64,000 nt of DNA from a virus, in IMG/VR virus record IMGVR_UViG_3300036792_000284, positions 1 through 64,000 of that record. One strand, 5' to 3'. Positions 48,463 to 56,381 of this stretch are shown piece after piece. The first letter of the stretch is position 1. Each line of letters opens with the position of its first letter. The position numbers and the translations under genes were made by a program. The notes under the pieces were generated by a model. The model ran no database searches and was not told the DNA's origin. It saw only the letters and a list, made by a program, of their open reading frames with translations.

Positions 48463-48546
48463 TGGTGACGGACGCAGGAATCGAACCTGCCGTGCCGAAG
48501 CAGCCGGGTTACAGCCGGCCCCCATGCCATCTCGGGTCACTCCGCC
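48463..48546 (-). tRNA. tRNA-Tyr (GTA)
   Basis: Class II tRNA with anticodon arm GCCGG-CTGTAAC-CCGGC and a variable arm TGCTTCGGCA. CCA encoded; one G-G mismatch at the base of the acceptor. Confidence 0.88.
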
Positions 48547-48547
48547 T

Positions 48548-49032: not shown

Positions 49033-49108
49033 CGCTCCTGACGGGATTCGGACCCGCGGTCTCCACCGTGACAGGGTGGCGGGGACGGCCAGACTCCCCT
49101 ACAGGTGC
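49033..49108 (-). tRNA. tRNA-Asp (GTC)
   Basis: Anticodon arm CCACC-CTGTCAC-GGTGG, T-loop TCCGAAT, discriminator G; one A-A mismatch in the acceptor. Confidence 0.88.
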
Positions 49109-49120
49109 ATGTGTACTGCG

Positions 49121-49195
49121 CTCTCGCGGCAGGATTCGAACCTGCAACCCCCCGATTAACAGTCGGGCGCTAACTGCCAGTTGAGCTACGCGAGA
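49121..49195 (-). tRNA. tRNA-Asn (GTT)
   Basis: Anticodon arm CCCGA-CTGTTAA-TCGGG, perfect acceptor TCTCGCG/CGCGAGA, discriminator G. Confidence 0.92.
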
Positions 49196-49214: not shown

Positions 49215-49973
49215 TTATTTAGCCCTTATCCAGCAGGGCCAGCCACGTATTCCCCGGAGCTTACGCCGGCCGCCAGTGCCGGACCTCGGTAAACAGTAAA
49301 GGCTCCCGGCGCCAGGAGCCCTCGCTGCTCTGTTGCCAGCCTGTCGAGGTGACTGGTCAGACCGTGGCGGGGGCAGGATTCGAACCTGCGTCTTCCGGGT
49401 TATGAGCCCGGGCTGGGACCTAGCTCCAGTCACCCCGCACCGTGTGGCACCAGGATAGCCCCCCAGGTGCCCGTGCTGCCGACGGGAATCGAACCCGTGT
49501 CGCTTATCCGGTTTGAAGGACCGGCGGCCCCTATCCAGCAGAGCAACGACAGCATGTAACTTAACGTGAGCCCAGTCAATCCCGCACCTGACACGGCTGA
49601 CCGTAGCCCGGGAAACTCCAAAACGTGCAGCAGCTGCCCGGGTGGGCTCACTTGATGCCCTGATCTCACGCACCAACTGTGGAGTCAGCTTGGCCTGAAC
49701 CTGCTGCTCTCCGTGCAACTTCTCCCCGGCAGACTTCTCATCATGATGCGGCCGACAGAGCACTTGGCACTTAGCTAGCTCAAGCTCACGCCGCATGCGC
49801 GACCACGACCAGACGTTATGACTAACCTTCAAGGCAGGGTCAATATGGTCCAGTTGAAGGTCATCGGCGCTGCCGCACCGGACACACGTCTTGTCGGCGA
49901 ACCAGGATGCACGAGTAGCTGCGGCCCGCTCTCTCTGGTATCTGCGCTGCTGTTCCGGGTCCTTATAGGGCAC
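49215..49973 (-). CDS. HNH endonuclease with C-terminal HTH, frame runs on into tRNA genes
   Basis: GTG at 49973 (VPYKDPEQQRRYQRER) opens an HNH domain: KTCVRCGSADDLQLDHIDP ... KCQVLCRPHHDEK, followed by a helix-turn-helix (LTPQLVREIR ... AAARFGVSRATVSRV). Homologous free-standing nucleases normally stop right after this HTH; here the frame continues about 115 codons through tRNA-Glu and tRNA-Met. A TAA lies one frame away at DWAHV (about 49563), so a single-base change may have removed the native stop. TTACACT just before GTG suggests leaderless expression. Confidence 0.75.
   Translation of the reverse strand: MPYKDPEQQRRYQRERAAATRASWFADKTCVRCGSADDLQLDHIDPALKVSHNVWSWSRMRRELELAKCQVLCRPHHDEKSAGEKLHGEQQVQAKLTPQLVREIRASSEPTRAAAARFGVSRATVSRVRCGIDWAHVKLHAVVALLDRGRRSFKPDKRHGFDSRRQHGHLGGYPGATRCGVTGARSQPGLITRKTQVRILPPPRSDQSPRQAGNRAARAPGAGSLYCLPRSGTGGRRKLRGIRGWPCWIRAK
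49365..49439 (-). tRNA. initiator-like tRNA-Met (CAT)
   Basis: Anticodon arm CCGGG-CTCATAA-CCCGG has the three G-C pairs (29-31/39-41) typical of initiator tRNA, and the first acceptor pair is a T-C mismatch as in formylated initiators. Acceptor GCGGGG/CCCCGC otherwise intact. Confidence 0.8.
49474..49553 (-). tRNA. tRNA-Glu (TTC), C33, atypical
   Basis: Acceptor GCTGTCG/CGGCAGC, anticodon arm CCGGT-CCTTCAA-ACCGG: position 33 is C. The variable region is long (about 9 nt) for a class I tRNA, giving 80 nt. Confidence 0.75.
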
Positions 49974-49992
49974 AAACAAGTGTAACCCCTAC

Positions 49993-51331: not shown

Positions 51332-51464
51332 TTGATTTACAGGAGAACCCGAAGACCGGACCCCGGCGTGCACACCGAGGCGGCTGCCCTCACTCCGACT
51401 AGTTGCGGCCTGCGCACGACCGACTGGCACGGCGAGTCTTCTGGGGATGTTGCACGTTCTCCCG

Positions 51465-51898: not shown

Positions 51899-51992
51899 GT
51901 AACCCGGACCTATTCTGGCCTCACAGCACTTATGCGAGGCGCTGTAGTCTATTTGGCCAGGTGGTTTCCGGGGGCGGTATGCATCCCGCCAG

Positions 51993-52152: not shown

Positions 52153-52156
52153 ATAG

Positions 52157-52268
52157 TGACAGCTCACTCAGGAAACCACGGGAACCCGGTACCCGAGCCT
52201 CTCCTGGGATGGACGTCTCCACTTCCGCTGACTACCGCTTAAAGGCGGCTCCTGCGTCGGAGCTGTCA
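52157..52268 (-). ncRNA. structured RNA A (homologue of RNA B)
   Basis: A 112-nt segment between tRNA-Pro and tRNA-Phe, closed by TGACAGCTC/GAGCTGTCA. Inside are a hairpin CCGC-CTTTAA-GCGG, a TGGA-GACG-TCCA hairpin and a CGGG-TACCGGGTT-CCCG hairpin. RNA B has the same order with compensatory changes in each helix. No known RNA class recognised; no ORF. Confidence 0.7.
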
Positions 52269-52271
52269 AGT

Positions 52272-52341
52272 CGGGACACAGGGACTCGGACCCCGTCTGC
52301 CTGCTCCCAAAGCAGGCGCGCTAACCCTTACGCGATATCCC
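52272..52341 (-). tRNA. tRNA-Pro (TGG)
   Basis: Anticodon arm CCTGC-TTTGGGA-GCAGG, acceptor GGGATAT/GTGTCCC, short D loop, T-loop TCCGAGT. Confidence 0.85.
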
Positions 52342-52479
52342 GTAGACGGGCGGAGTGCTGCCGTTACACCACAGCCCTCAGCTCCTCGGGGCGGCCTACC
52401 CCGGCGTCCCTGGTGGCCACCAGGTCGGCGCGGAACCTTCGCGAGAGCTGCCGGGGACTTGAACCCCGGACTGCCGCCC
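52342..52479 (-). tRNA. candidate circularly permuted tRNA X
   Basis: In transcription order: a 3' tRNA half (52479-52444: anticodon-stem strand GGGCGG, variable AGTC, T arm CGGGG-TTCAAGT-CCCCG, acceptor CAGCTCT), 65 nt, then a 5' half (52378-52342: acceptor AGGGCTG, D arm TGTAACGGCAGCA, anticodon-stem strand CCGCCC plus GTCTAC). Both half-stems pair completely across the break. The 3' half starts right after the CCA of tRNA-Pro (CGG); the 5' half ends right at tRNA-Pro (TGG). Recombination remnants are the alternative. Confidence 0.5.
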
Positions 52480-52558
52480 TGGTCGGGGTGGTGAGATTTG
52501 AACTCACGACCTCTTCGTCCCGAACGAAGCGCGCTCGACCAAGCTGCGCTACACCCCG
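52480..52558 (-). tRNA. tRNA-Pro (CGG)
   Basis: Acceptor CGGGGTG/CACCCCG, anticodon arm CTTCG-TTCGGGA-CGAAG, T-loop TTCAAAT, CCA encoded. Confidence 0.92.
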
Positions 52559-52562
52559 AAGG

Positions 52563-52675
52563 TGACGGTGCACCCAGTCCGCCCGGGGAACCCGGTACCC
52601 CGGCGCAGGCTCAGGCCATGCGTCCATGCTTCGGCCGACCACCTCTTTGCGGAGGCTCCTGCTTCGGCACCGTCA
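52563..52675 (-). ncRNA. structured RNA B (homologue of RNA A)
   Basis: A 113-nt segment just upstream of tRNA-Pro (CGG), closed by TGACGGTGC/GCACCGTCA, with hairpins CCTC-CGCAAA-GAGG, CATG-GACG-CATG and CCGGGG-TACCGGGTT-CCCCGG. It shares GACTTGAC, GCAGGAGCC, GTC-GC-GAAG and the GGTACCGGGTTCCC core with RNA A. Confidence 0.7.
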
Positions 52676-52688
52676 AGTCGAACTAAGT

Positions 52689-52802
52689 TCACGGCATGAC
52701 CGTCCAGCTGTTGGTCTGCTCGTGCAACTGGATCTCACTGTGGCGAACCCAAGACGGCTCGCCGGGCCCGCCGGTGCAAGCGACGTTTCCCTTGTCTCCC
52801 AT
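52689..52802 (-). CDS. 37-residue ORF in the tRNA island
   Basis: ATG preceded by GGGGAGG at 8 nt; MGDKGNVACTGGPGEPSW then RHSEIQLHEQTNSWTVMP. Lies between tRNA-Ala (CGC) and RNA B on the same strand as the tRNAs. No family recognised. Confidence 0.55.
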   Translation of the reverse strand: MGDKGNVACTGGPGEPSWVRHSEIQLHEQTNSWTVMP

Positions 52803-52853
52803 GAGGATTACCTCCCCTCAGCAGTCGGCATGTTTTCCACACCAGCTACTACG

Positions 52854-52926
52854 TGGAGCCTGCGGGATTCGAACCCGCGACCTTTTCCGTGCGAGGGAAC
52901 TGCGCTACCAGTTGCGCCAAGGCCCC
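52854..52926 (-). tRNA. tRNA-Ala (CGC)
   Basis: Acceptor GGGGCCT/AGGCTCC, anticodon stem TTCC/GGAA with loop CTCGCAC, T-loop TTCGAAT. Confidence 0.9.
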
Positions 52927-53061
52927 AGATGCGGCACTCTGCCAATTGAGCTACCGGCCAGCGACAGCCAGACTGACCCCGGCTTTCCGCTAAGCGTACT
53001 GACCTGGTGCTGACTGCCTCGCATGTGACCGGGCAGGACTCGAACCTGCAACCCGCCGCCG
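52927..53061 (-). tRNA. candidate circularly permuted tRNA Y
   Basis: In transcription order: 3' half (53061-53026: GCGGC stem strand, variable GGGTT, T arm GCAGG-TTCGAGT-CCTGC, acceptor CCGGTCA), 65 nt, then 5' half (52960-52927: acceptor TGGCCGG, TA, D arm GCTCAATTGGCAGAG, stem strand GCCGC, ATCT). Acceptor and anticodon stems pair across the break. It directly abuts tRNA-Ala genes at both ends. The spacer ends also pair (GCGA/TCGC and CAGTCAG/CTGGCTG). Confidence 0.5.
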
Positions 53062-53134
53062 TGGAACCTGCCGGATTCGAACCGGCGACCTCCTGCATGC
53101 CATGCAGGCGCGCTACCAGCTGCGCCAAGGCCCC
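53062..53134 (-). tRNA. tRNA-Ala (GGC)
   Basis: Acceptor GGGGCCT/AGGTTCC, anticodon arm CCTGC-ATGGCAT-GCAGG, T-loop TTCGAAT. Its 5' flank (TGCCGCA-CTCT) resembles that of tRNA-Ala (CGC), indicating a tandem duplication. Confidence 0.92.
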
Positions 53135-53349
53135 AGAGTGCGGCAGGCCGGACCGCGGTGTGAACACGGCCCCGCCCGCCACGTCTGAACAGGCAGCTCT
53201 TGTATCCGCTTCTTTCGCTGCCTGCAACCGGGACATAATCAACGGCCCCGGCTGCGGCGGGATGGCGCCCGCCGCTGATGCTCACGCTGTGGAGTTAGCA
53301 AGTTACGGTGACATGCGCCTGCGCGGGCTCTCGCCGTTGCTGACGGTCG
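53135..53349. other. 215-bp spacer between tRNA-Ala and tRNA-Trp
   Basis: I see no tRNA, no convincing ORF and no homologue of RNA A/B here; several GC-rich self-complementary stretches are present. Confidence 0.4.
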
Positions 53350-53421
53350 CAGGGACGGGGGGAGTCGAACCCTCATTCCGCTGGTTTTGGAGACCAGCCG
53401 CCGAGCCGCTGGCTCGTCCCT
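53350..53421 (-). tRNA. tRNA-Trp (CCA)
   Basis: Acceptor AGGGACG/CGTCCCT, anticodon arm CTGGT-CTCCAAA-ACCAG, T-loop TTCGACT, discriminator G. First tRNA of the island; its first two bases overlap the stop of the HNH gene. Confidence 0.92.
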
Positions 53422-53812
53422 AAGTTGACTTACTTGTGAGTCTGTGGTTCCGGTTGTACTCGGACTTCCTGGCTCTGCATGGACCACACGGGCAGTTCCT
53501 CTTGCCAGAGACTCCGCCTCCGTGGTCTACGCCTACCTCGCTCCGAGTCTTCTCCAGGTGATGCTCCCGGCAGAGAAGCTGGCACTTCGCTAGTTCTGCC
53601 TGTAGCTCAGCCGGGCTCCGGTTCCACCTGTCCGTGATGGCGAACTCTTTCAGCTCACGCTCAACATGATCGAACTGCAGGTCTTCCGAAGAACCGCACC
53701 GAACACATTTCCCGCCCAGCAACTCGATGAGCTTTGCCTTCGCGGCTTGGTAGCGGGCCTGGTCGTAATCCGACCGATCCCACTCTGCAGCCCACCACTC
53801 TCTGTCTGGCAT
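53420..53812 (-). CDS. HNH endonuclease at the head of the tRNA island
   Basis: A 130-residue protein with GGKCVRCGSSEDLQFDHVER ... LAKCQLLCREHHLEKT (HNH with Cys pair) and a C-terminal CPCGPCRARKSEYNRNHR segment. ATG is only a few bases after TAGTAC, so the message may be leaderless. Typical mobile nuclease bordering a tRNA array. Confidence 0.85.
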   Translation of the reverse strand: MPDREWWAAEWDRSDYDQARYQAAKAKLIELLGGKCVRCGSSEDLQFDHVERELKEFAITDRWNRSPAELQAELAKCQLLCREHHLEKTRSEVGVDHGGGVSGKRNCPCGPCRARKSEYNRNHRLTSKST

Positions 53813-54416: not shown

Positions 54417-56381
54417 CTACTGCAGGTAGTCTCCGCTAACCGAGCCCCAGTCGTCCAGGTAACTGCTGCCGTACTCCATGCCGGGCCGGTCGCTCGGCAT
54501 GAACTCATCCGGCCCCAGCACCGTCAGCGACATCGGCATTCCCGCCGGCGAGGGGATCTCCGCCGTCGGGCCGTAGAACTCGACCTGGCCGAGGTAGGCG
54601 CGCTTGCCCGCCGGGTCCTCCTGGCCGCCGACCTCCAGCGCGCCGGACACCGCGCCGGCCAGGGAGTCGGCCTCGTCCTTGGAGCTGTCGCCCAGGTGGT
54701 CGATCCGGCCGTTCGGCAGCCGGGACAGGCCGAGCAGCTCGATGATGGTCAGCTCGCGGGCCGGGGCCTCCATCCGGCCCTCGTACATGACGTCGCGCAG
54801 CGTCCGCCAGCCCTCTTCGGACACGTCGGTGGAGAAGCGGTCGGTCTCGATGCCGTGGCTTTCGAGGATCTGCATCGAATCCTTGGACTGCCACTGGTCG
54901 AAGGTGAAGCGGACGATCGGGAAGCCCATCCGGCGCAACTCCAGGCACAGCATGCGCGCCCACCGAATCTGGATCTCCATCGGCGGGACCGCGCCGGCGT
55001 CGGACTCGTAGCTGATGGTGAAGTCGACCTTCACCACCGGCCGCCGCTCGGCCACCTGGATCTCGATGCCGTCCTCGTCGTGGCCGACCAGCGCGTGGTC
55101 CTGCCAGCGCTTGACGTGCGCCATGGACACGCCGGCCCGGTCGCCGGTGGCCGCCAGGTCGGCGTGCATCGCGTACAGGGCGCCCTTGACCGGGAAGAAG
55201 TCCGGGCTGAAGGTGTAGAGCGGCTTCCAGGTGGCGCCCTCGCGCACGTACGCCACGCTCACCGGCGGCTGGGTGACCTCGGTGAAGCACTCCCGGACCG
55301 CCTGCTCGTTGGCGAAGTACGGGTTGATCGCGCGCCGCGGCTTGCACTCGTATTTCGCCTCGGCCAGCGCCGGGTCCTTCTCGTAGTCCTCCGCGAACGC
55401 CTCTTTCCCGCTGATGCGGGGATTGGCCTCCCACGTCGCCAAAGGACCGCTGACGTAGTACCGGCTGTTCTCGCCCTTGGCCGCGTTGTCCGCCTTGCCC
55501 TTGGCCACCAGCTGCTGGATGGTGCTGCCCAGGTAGCGCGGGTAGGAGATGTGCACGTTCTTGAACGTGCCGGGGAACCGGGTGGTCGCCGAGGTGCGGA
55601 GCATGTCGAGGATCGCCTCGGCCGAAGACGACGACTCGCGCTGCCGGGCGCCGGCGTTGCGGGCCAGCTCGGCCGCCGAGCGGAACGCGTCGATCTCGTC
55701 GGCGATGCCGAGCACCAGGTTGAGGCCCTCCTGGCTGTCGGCATCAGAGTGACCGCTGACGGCCTCGATGTTGTGCTCGAAACGGATCGTGTCCAGCAGC
55801 GCGGTGGTGCGCTCGCCGCTGCTGCGCCGCTGCCGCTCAGCCGCGTCGAGGATGTCGATCCCGCCGACCCGCTGGAACCAGCAGCCCGGCCGCTGCACCG
55901 CGCGGCGCATCGGGGCGAAGAACGCGCGCTGGGCCTGCTTGGACGACGACGCCACGTTCAGCACGTGGATCGAGTCCTGCTCGGGCATCTGGAAGTAGAC
56001 CTGCGGGGACTTCAGGCACAGCAGCAGGTAGCAGACCCGCATGGCGATCATCCGGCAGGTGTGGTCCTTGCCGCCGCCTTTGCCCCACTCCAGTTCCAGG
56101 AAGTTGACCATCCGGCACGGCTGGCTCCAGTAGTCGCGGACCCGCTTGTCCGCGCTGCCGGCCAGCAGCTCGTAGGTCTCCGGGTAGTAGACGCGCTCGG
56201 CGTGCCGGACCGCCTCGTACTGGACCTCGCTCAGCGGCGGGTTGGCCAGGTACCCGCGGTCCTGCACGAACACGCTGAGCGGGACCGGCTCCTCCTCGAA
56301 GATGCCCAGCCCGCGCGCTGACGTGCCCGTGCCGCCCGCCCGACCGAGCAGGGCCGCGGCGGCTGCCCCCGCGGAAGCCAC
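54417..56381 (-). CDS. terminase large subunit
   Basis: A 654-residue protein (GTG start). Residues about 98-107 carry the ATPase P-loop EWGKGGGKD, followed by the adenine/helicase-like region (MIAMRVCYLLLCLKSP) and GIADEIDAFRS as Walker B; the RNase H-like nuclease begins near MHADLAATGDRAG with catalytic Asp residues and ends near DSLAGAVSGALE. Packages DNA into the prohead through the portal. The small subunit is not identified. Confidence 0.9.
   Translation of the reverse strand: MASAGAAAAALLGRAGGTGTSARGLGIFEEEPVPLSVFVQDRGYLANPPLSEVQYEAVRHAERVYYPETYELLAGSADKRVRDYWSQPCRMVNFLELEWGKGGGKDHTCRMIAMRVCYLLLCLKSPQVYFQMPEQDSIHVLNVASSSKQAQRAFFAPMRRAVQRPGCWFQRVGGIDILDAAERQRRSSGERTTALLDTIRFEHNIEAVSGHSDADSQEGLNLVLGIADEIDAFRSAAELARNAGARQRESSSSAEAILDMLRTSATTRFPGTFKNVHISYPRYLGSTIQQLVAKGKADNAAKGENSRYYVSGPLATWEANPRISGKEAFAEDYEKDPALAEAKYECKPRRAINPYFANEQAVRECFTEVTQPPVSVAYVREGATWKPLYTFSPDFFPVKGALYAMHADLAATGDRAGVSMAHVKRWQDHALVGHDEDGIEIQVAERRPVVKVDFTISYESDAGAVPPMEIQIRWARMLCLELRRMGFPIVRFTFDQWQSKDSMQILESHGIETDRFSTDVSEEGWRTLRDVMYEGRMEAPARELTIIELLGLSRLPNGRIDHLGDSSKDEADSLAGAVSGALEVGGQEDPAGKRAYLGQVEFYGPTAEIPSPAGMPMSLTVLGPDEFMPSDRPGMEYGSSYLDDWGSVSGDYLQ

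Follow-up and report, generated by a model that had tools for sequence, protein, structure and literature searches.

We examined a 64,000-nt window (positions 1 to 64,000 of a 124,279-bp virus record) that carries a minus-strand array of 33 tRNA genes, called by ARAGORN between 48233 and 53421. Two gaps in this array are exactly filled by elements that we call X and Y, putative tRNA-mimic modules that, like the tRNA genes around them, are read on the minus strand. X (52343..52479) takes up the whole gap between tRNA-Pro(cgg) upstream (52480..52558) and tRNA-Pro(tgg) downstream (52270..52342), and Y (52927..53061) that between tRNA-Ala(ggc) upstream (53061..53134) and tRNA-Ala(cgc) downstream (52853..52926), the gene coordinates being those of ARAGORN. 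Base 52342 is C1 of tRNA-Pro(tgg), and base 53061 comes directly after the discriminator of tRNA-Ala(ggc). In both elements a tRNA 3' half is followed by 65 nt and then by the matching 5' half. A preliminary description of the locus had reported this reversed order and the pairing of the separated halves; the order is confirmed, with slightly corrected coordinates, and the acceptor-like and anticodon-like stems are complete, with 7/7 acceptor pairs and 5/5 closing-stem pairs in X and in Y alike.

In the direction of transcription, X begins with the 5' strand (GGCGG, 52474..52478) of a basal closing helix that resembles an anticodon stem and whose 3' strand (CCGCC, 52349..52353) lies near the other end. 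Enclosed between the two are a T-arm (CCGGGG-TTCAAGT-CCCCGG, 52451..52469), an acceptor arm (52372..52450) and a D-arm (GTGT-AACGGCA-GCAC, 52355..52369). The acceptor arm consists of the 3' strand CAGCTCT (52450-52444), the 65-nt insert, itself structured (52443-52379), and the 5' strand AGGGCTG (52378-52372), and it folds into a closed hairpin at -40.2 kcal/mol. An alternative fold of X is nearly equal in energy (free, -65.7 versus -63.6 kcal/mol).

Y is built in the same way, with the closing helix GCGGC (53055..53059) and GCCGC (52931..52935), the T-arm GCAGG-TTCGAGT-CCTGC (53033..53049), an acceptor arm that folds closed at -33.0 kcal/mol (52954..53032) and the D-arm GCTC-AATTGGCA-GAGT (52936..52951). 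Its acceptor strands are CCGGTCA (53032-53026) and TGGCCGG (52960-52954), and the 65 nt between them (53025-52961) contain an inner hairpin related to that of the counterparts in L004 and L008. The last four bases, ATCT (52927..52930), had been read as part of an anticodon loop; they more probably belong to tRNA-Ala(cgc) as its 5' leader, because similar pyrimidine-rich ends (TCT, ATCT) also lead tRNA-Ala genes that have no element before them, in L009 and L010. Such leaders also speak against a remnant of tandem duplication, which had been considered because CCGCACTCT, before tRNA-Ala(ggc), resembles the end of Y.

Relatives were gathered through the large terminase (54417-56378 in the window, minus strand), 14 at first and then further IMG/VR contigs. 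Their terminases are 51-89% identical to that of the window and many share its tRNA order; no relative in a cellular genome was found by terminase. About 18 elements with matched halves occur in this clade, mostly in syntenic tRNA arrays, where they sit in Ala-Ala, Pro-Pro, Pro-Phe, Ala-Pro and Gln-Thr gaps, and the gaps that are occupied differ from relative to relative. The copies near Gln in L008 and in L029 were picked up by a covariance model. Nearly all copies start 0-4 nt past the upstream tRNA, while the distance from the 5' half to the next tRNA is 36-129 nt in at least five, and two have no adjacent tRNA. One copy in L005 lies about 2.5 kb beyond the tRNA array, and one in the L007 genome (L073) lies far outside it. 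Every copy has an acceptor arm that folds into a closed hairpin, which is either short and capped (GAAA, GAGA, GGAA or UUCG/UCCG) or longer, with a long extra hairpin and extra helices. The spacers of the related elements measure 3, 3, 6, 6, 6, 8, 8, 12, 35, 41, 54, 60, 64, 64 and 74 nt. The equal spacers to which the preliminary description drew attention are thus both 65 nt long but agree by coincidence, and a constant 65-nt spacer was discarded as a clue.

To measure pairing between halves, these were picked by their T-arm and D-arm, leaving acceptor pairing unused, which gave 14 distinct elements from the window and its relatives. Acceptor halves pair at 6.21 of 7 positions within elements and at 4.19 of 7 between elements, and closing stems at 4.64 of 5 and 3.65 of 5; for each, none of 200,000 permutations reached the observed value. 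In alignment A2, all seven acceptor pairs vary on both of their sides, pairing holds in 88.3% of cells (68.1% when shuffled), and the covariation score is 0.576 as against 0.202 for shuffles, dropping to 0.10-0.24 when the partners are slid. Measured against such re-pairings and shuffles, the covariation of the halves points to selection on the structure of the element. Conservation of T8, TTCRA and GG is to be read as partly built in, since the element finder required them. Of the two signs for which the preliminary description had looked to related phages, the covarying halves are found, and the fixed spacing (3-74 nt) is not.

The order of helices in X and Y is that of the Rfam YrlA consensus (RF02553), in which a basal stem encloses, in this order, the T-arm GCGGGUUCGAgaCCCGC, a capped acceptor hairpin, UA and the D-arm GCUCA..GGUAGAGC. 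YrlA has been described as a basal stem with tRNA-like D, T and acceptor arms; it is reported to be acted on by tRNA-modifying enzymes and to tether PNPase (PMC8394870). X and Y share with it the tRNA-like domain, the D-arm, the T-arm, the capped acceptor arm and the permuted order. YrlA is also the best non-tRNA family match, at 33.3 bits on Y and 37.9 bits on the GAAA-capped copy of L005/L006, scores below the Rfam gathering cut-off of 69 bits; X is absent among the listed YrlA matches. The module of A3Wally, a phage for which a Ro-like protein is annotated, reaches 40.8 bits and likewise falls under 69, so that phage Y RNAs are probably missed at this threshold. From a Listeria phage, RNAs that are abundant and lie close to a Ro-like gene have been suggested to be Y RNAs (PMC12282133).

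A covariance model, R1, was made from 15 elements of this clade only and then run on Ro-encoding phages. In Mycobacterium phage Alice its best match (127090-127169) lies 190 nt upstream of Ro (127358), and in Microbacterium phage FuzzBuster its sole match (49096-49164, minus strand) has Ro (48901-47324) 195 nt downstream; the best matches in A3Wally and Comrade are 0.7-2.6 kb from Ro, and that in Samisti12 is 5.5 kb away. Those matches that were folded show the module, several of them with a CGGTTATC...GCACC stem. A model built from this clade thus finds RNAs beside phage Ro genes. Within tRNA arrays R1 is a weak detector, since the 3' half of one ordinary tRNA and the 5' half of the next can together score up to about 48 bits. 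Y is found at 52931-53059 with 57.8 bits, as a sequence on which the model was trained; the match to X (52349-52478, 40.9 bits) is within the tandem-tRNA background. The case for X is therefore weaker than that for Y, the more so with its near-equal alternative fold, and it rests on its own pairing and on its relatives. In L053 (Samisti12), L055 (A3Wally) and L073 (relative G004) the modules are preceded by TTATCTTCA or TTATCTTTA and not by CGGTTATC, and these modules, from Streptomyces and Microbacterium phages and one clade member, are possibly a second class. Arthrobacter phage Mimi (L057) has two tandem modules, at 1345-1418 and 1501-1592, with no Ro match in our search, an instance of Ro-less modules outside this clade.

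The structure first seen in X and Y is real and conserved; the name first given to it, permuted tRNA gene, is not supported. Our preferred reading, to which we assign a probability of about 0.72, is that X and Y are Ro-less, Y-RNA-like tRNA mimics, noncoding RNAs that are released as the flanking tRNAs are processed and whose ends are not joined. Each would be a single uninterrupted RNA, its 5' end paired with its 3' end in a basal stem that occupies the position of an anticodon stem and carries the T-arm, the closed acceptor-like hairpin and the D-arm in the YrlA tRNA-like fold. Both would be transcribed as part of the tRNA array, and, as they lie flush against their neighbours, processing of these would free them, as had been proposed from the start; 3' processing of the upstream tRNA together with an RNase P cut of the downstream tRNA is the most likely route. 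The products would not be made into decoding tRNAs but may persist as stable free RNAs and bind proteins that recognise the tRNA elbow.

Such RNAs would most likely act as decoys or competitors, aimed at an enzyme of the host that binds tRNA, for example a tRNA-cutting defence nuclease. This would suit RNAs in which the tRNA elbow is present while the anticodon loop and a free acceptor end are both missing. A comparable suggestion has been made for YrlA, whose tRNA-like domain may be a competitive inhibitor of anticodon nuclease (PMC7790460). The main alternative role would be control of RNA decay independently of Ro. We offer only tentatively, as a possibility with most of the weight against it, the fuller proposal that a phage lineage has converted the tRNA-like module of Y RNAs into Ro-independent cassettes, which were inserted at several sites in its tRNA array, are freed by tRNA processing and act as decoys for host enzymes that cut or bind tRNA.

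The modules might instead be structured spacers, which would only keep tRNAs apart and help to process or stabilise the polycistronic transcript, and have no function in trans. The start of nearly all copies within 0-4 nt of the upstream tRNA would agree with this, as would the unrelated structured elements in other gaps and the variable presence of the element at a given gap. A plain spacer, however, has no need of a tRNA elbow and of matched acceptor arms, which are kept here over the divergence of the relatives, and some copies stand alone outside arrays; we regard this explanation as unlikely.

Y RNAs are understood as tethers that join Ro60 to PNPase, and X and Y could be bona fide members of this class, recruiting PNPase and a Ro60 that is made by the host or is too diverged to be recognised, as in the RYPER complex. 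Ro is carried by many actinophages, and the structural kinship to Ro-linked phage RNAs set out above is in favour. Against it, a search of the clade with Pfam and with the A3Wally protein, which took in clade records of 124-152 kb, possibly incomplete, and matched its A3Wally and Myrna controls, turned up neither a TROVE domain nor a Ro homologue; X and Y thus differ from YrlA in having no Ro60/Rsr gene found near them. Their basal stem has only 5-6 bp, up to the tRNA neighbours, in place of the long Ro-binding stem of YrlA, and the CGGTTATC motif of Ro-linked phage RNAs is absent from both. Other differences from YrlA and the Ro-linked RNAs are the flush position of X and Y between tRNA genes, the several divergent copies per phage in this clade, in which acceptor inserts reach 74 nt, and the clade scores below the Rfam cut-off. 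We consider Ro recruitment quite improbable, and retain the Ro-less form of the Y-RNA-like reading.

Circularly permuted tRNA genes are known in unicellular algae and in an archaeon, and the preliminary description had proposed that X and Y are of this kind and that processing of the neighbours would free a linear RNA with both ends in the anticodon loop, to be joined there. In full, such a pathway would go on from ligation to excision of the spacer by RNase P and RNase Z, and CCA addition would complete a decoding tRNA. X and Y do have the 3' half first, an intervening sequence at the acceptor end, and perfect acceptor and anticodon-like stems, and of 17 elements that were joined artificially, 15 are recognised by ARAGORN as folding like a tRNA. 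Neighbour processing would also leave a 5'-phosphate and a 3'-OH near the loop. The joined loops, though, are of 4-11 nt, with the usual 7 nt in 4 of 17, and have no anticodon in common, even among copies at the same site; an amber-suppressor or other defined anticodon was rejected for this inconsistency. For X, the loop GTCTAC that had been put forward needs a base borrowed from tRNA-Pro(tgg), since 52342 is C1 of that tRNA. The acceptor hairpins are capped or extended in all relatives, many closed by tetraloops as they are not in the algal and archaeal genes, and the copies with a distant next tRNA (at least five, at 36-129 nt) or apart from tRNAs (two) also speak against the proposal. To our knowledge, no BHB splicing machinery is to be expected in a bacterium. 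BHB splicing, a ligase and a circular intermediate are believed to be needed for the permuted tRNAs known so far, and those of algae mature through such an intermediate, which gives the proposal a precedent (PMC3978253). Profiles of RtcB and RNA_ligase found nothing in 12 records, with positive controls, and neither did that of T4 Rnl1, whose control was silent. Maturation by end-joining is on these grounds very unlikely.

The permuted two-piece tmRNA (Rfam RF04321) also has a tRNA-like domain with the 3' part before the 5' part; X and Y differ from it by their D-arm and the stem at the anticodon position, and RF04321 gave no match to either. Recombination debris, left by tandem duplication of a tRNA gene and deletion of the outer halves, might yield the observed order and would be in keeping with HNH genes in the array and with gaps that differ between relatives, and the spacing is indeed as loose as the preliminary description had expected of debris, yet the halves covary where decaying ones would not, and we give this explanation almost no credence.

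If X and Y are Y-RNA-like mimics as we propose, the many covarying, Ro-less tRNA-like copies in phage tRNA arrays would split the mimic from the tether, making the function of the mimic itself testable, and the use of neighbouring tRNAs as cutters would be a simple route to the production of such RNAs. For annotation, a tRNA 3' half found before its 5' half in a bacterium or phage may be a Y-RNA-like mimic and not a permuted tRNA gene.

Some other features of the array can be noted. (i) An element 'E' occurs in two structured copies beside Pro tRNAs (52153-52269 and 52561-52684, minus strand), whose closing stems compensate (GACAGCTC/GAGCTGTC and GACGGTGC/GCACCGTC); it has homologues in L008 (13961-14078) and L040 (13474-13582) and no match in Rfam. 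(ii) An element 'F' (51332-51463, minus strand) fills the Thr(cgt)-Leu(gag) gap, with the closing stem GGAGAAC/GTTCTCC, and is 74-78% identical in L005/L006 and L008. (iii) The Gly(tcc)-Lys(ctt) gap (51899-51991, minus strand) folds far better than shuffled sequences (z -4.57). (iv) A probable tRNA-Tyr(GTA), recognised by eye at 48463-48547 on the minus strand, was missed by ARAGORN, and a weak Rfam tRNA-Sec match (48467-48546) falls on it. (v) Genes for HNH endonucleases lie within the array (49215-49976) and at its edge (53420-53809), both on the minus strand, and in L009 the Ala-Ala gap has by eye an HNH-like reading frame where others have the mimic. (vi) In the Trp-Ala(ggc) gap (53135-53348, minus strand) a stretch GACCGTCAGCAACGGCGAGAGCC...CACAGCGTGAGCATC is conserved in most relatives.
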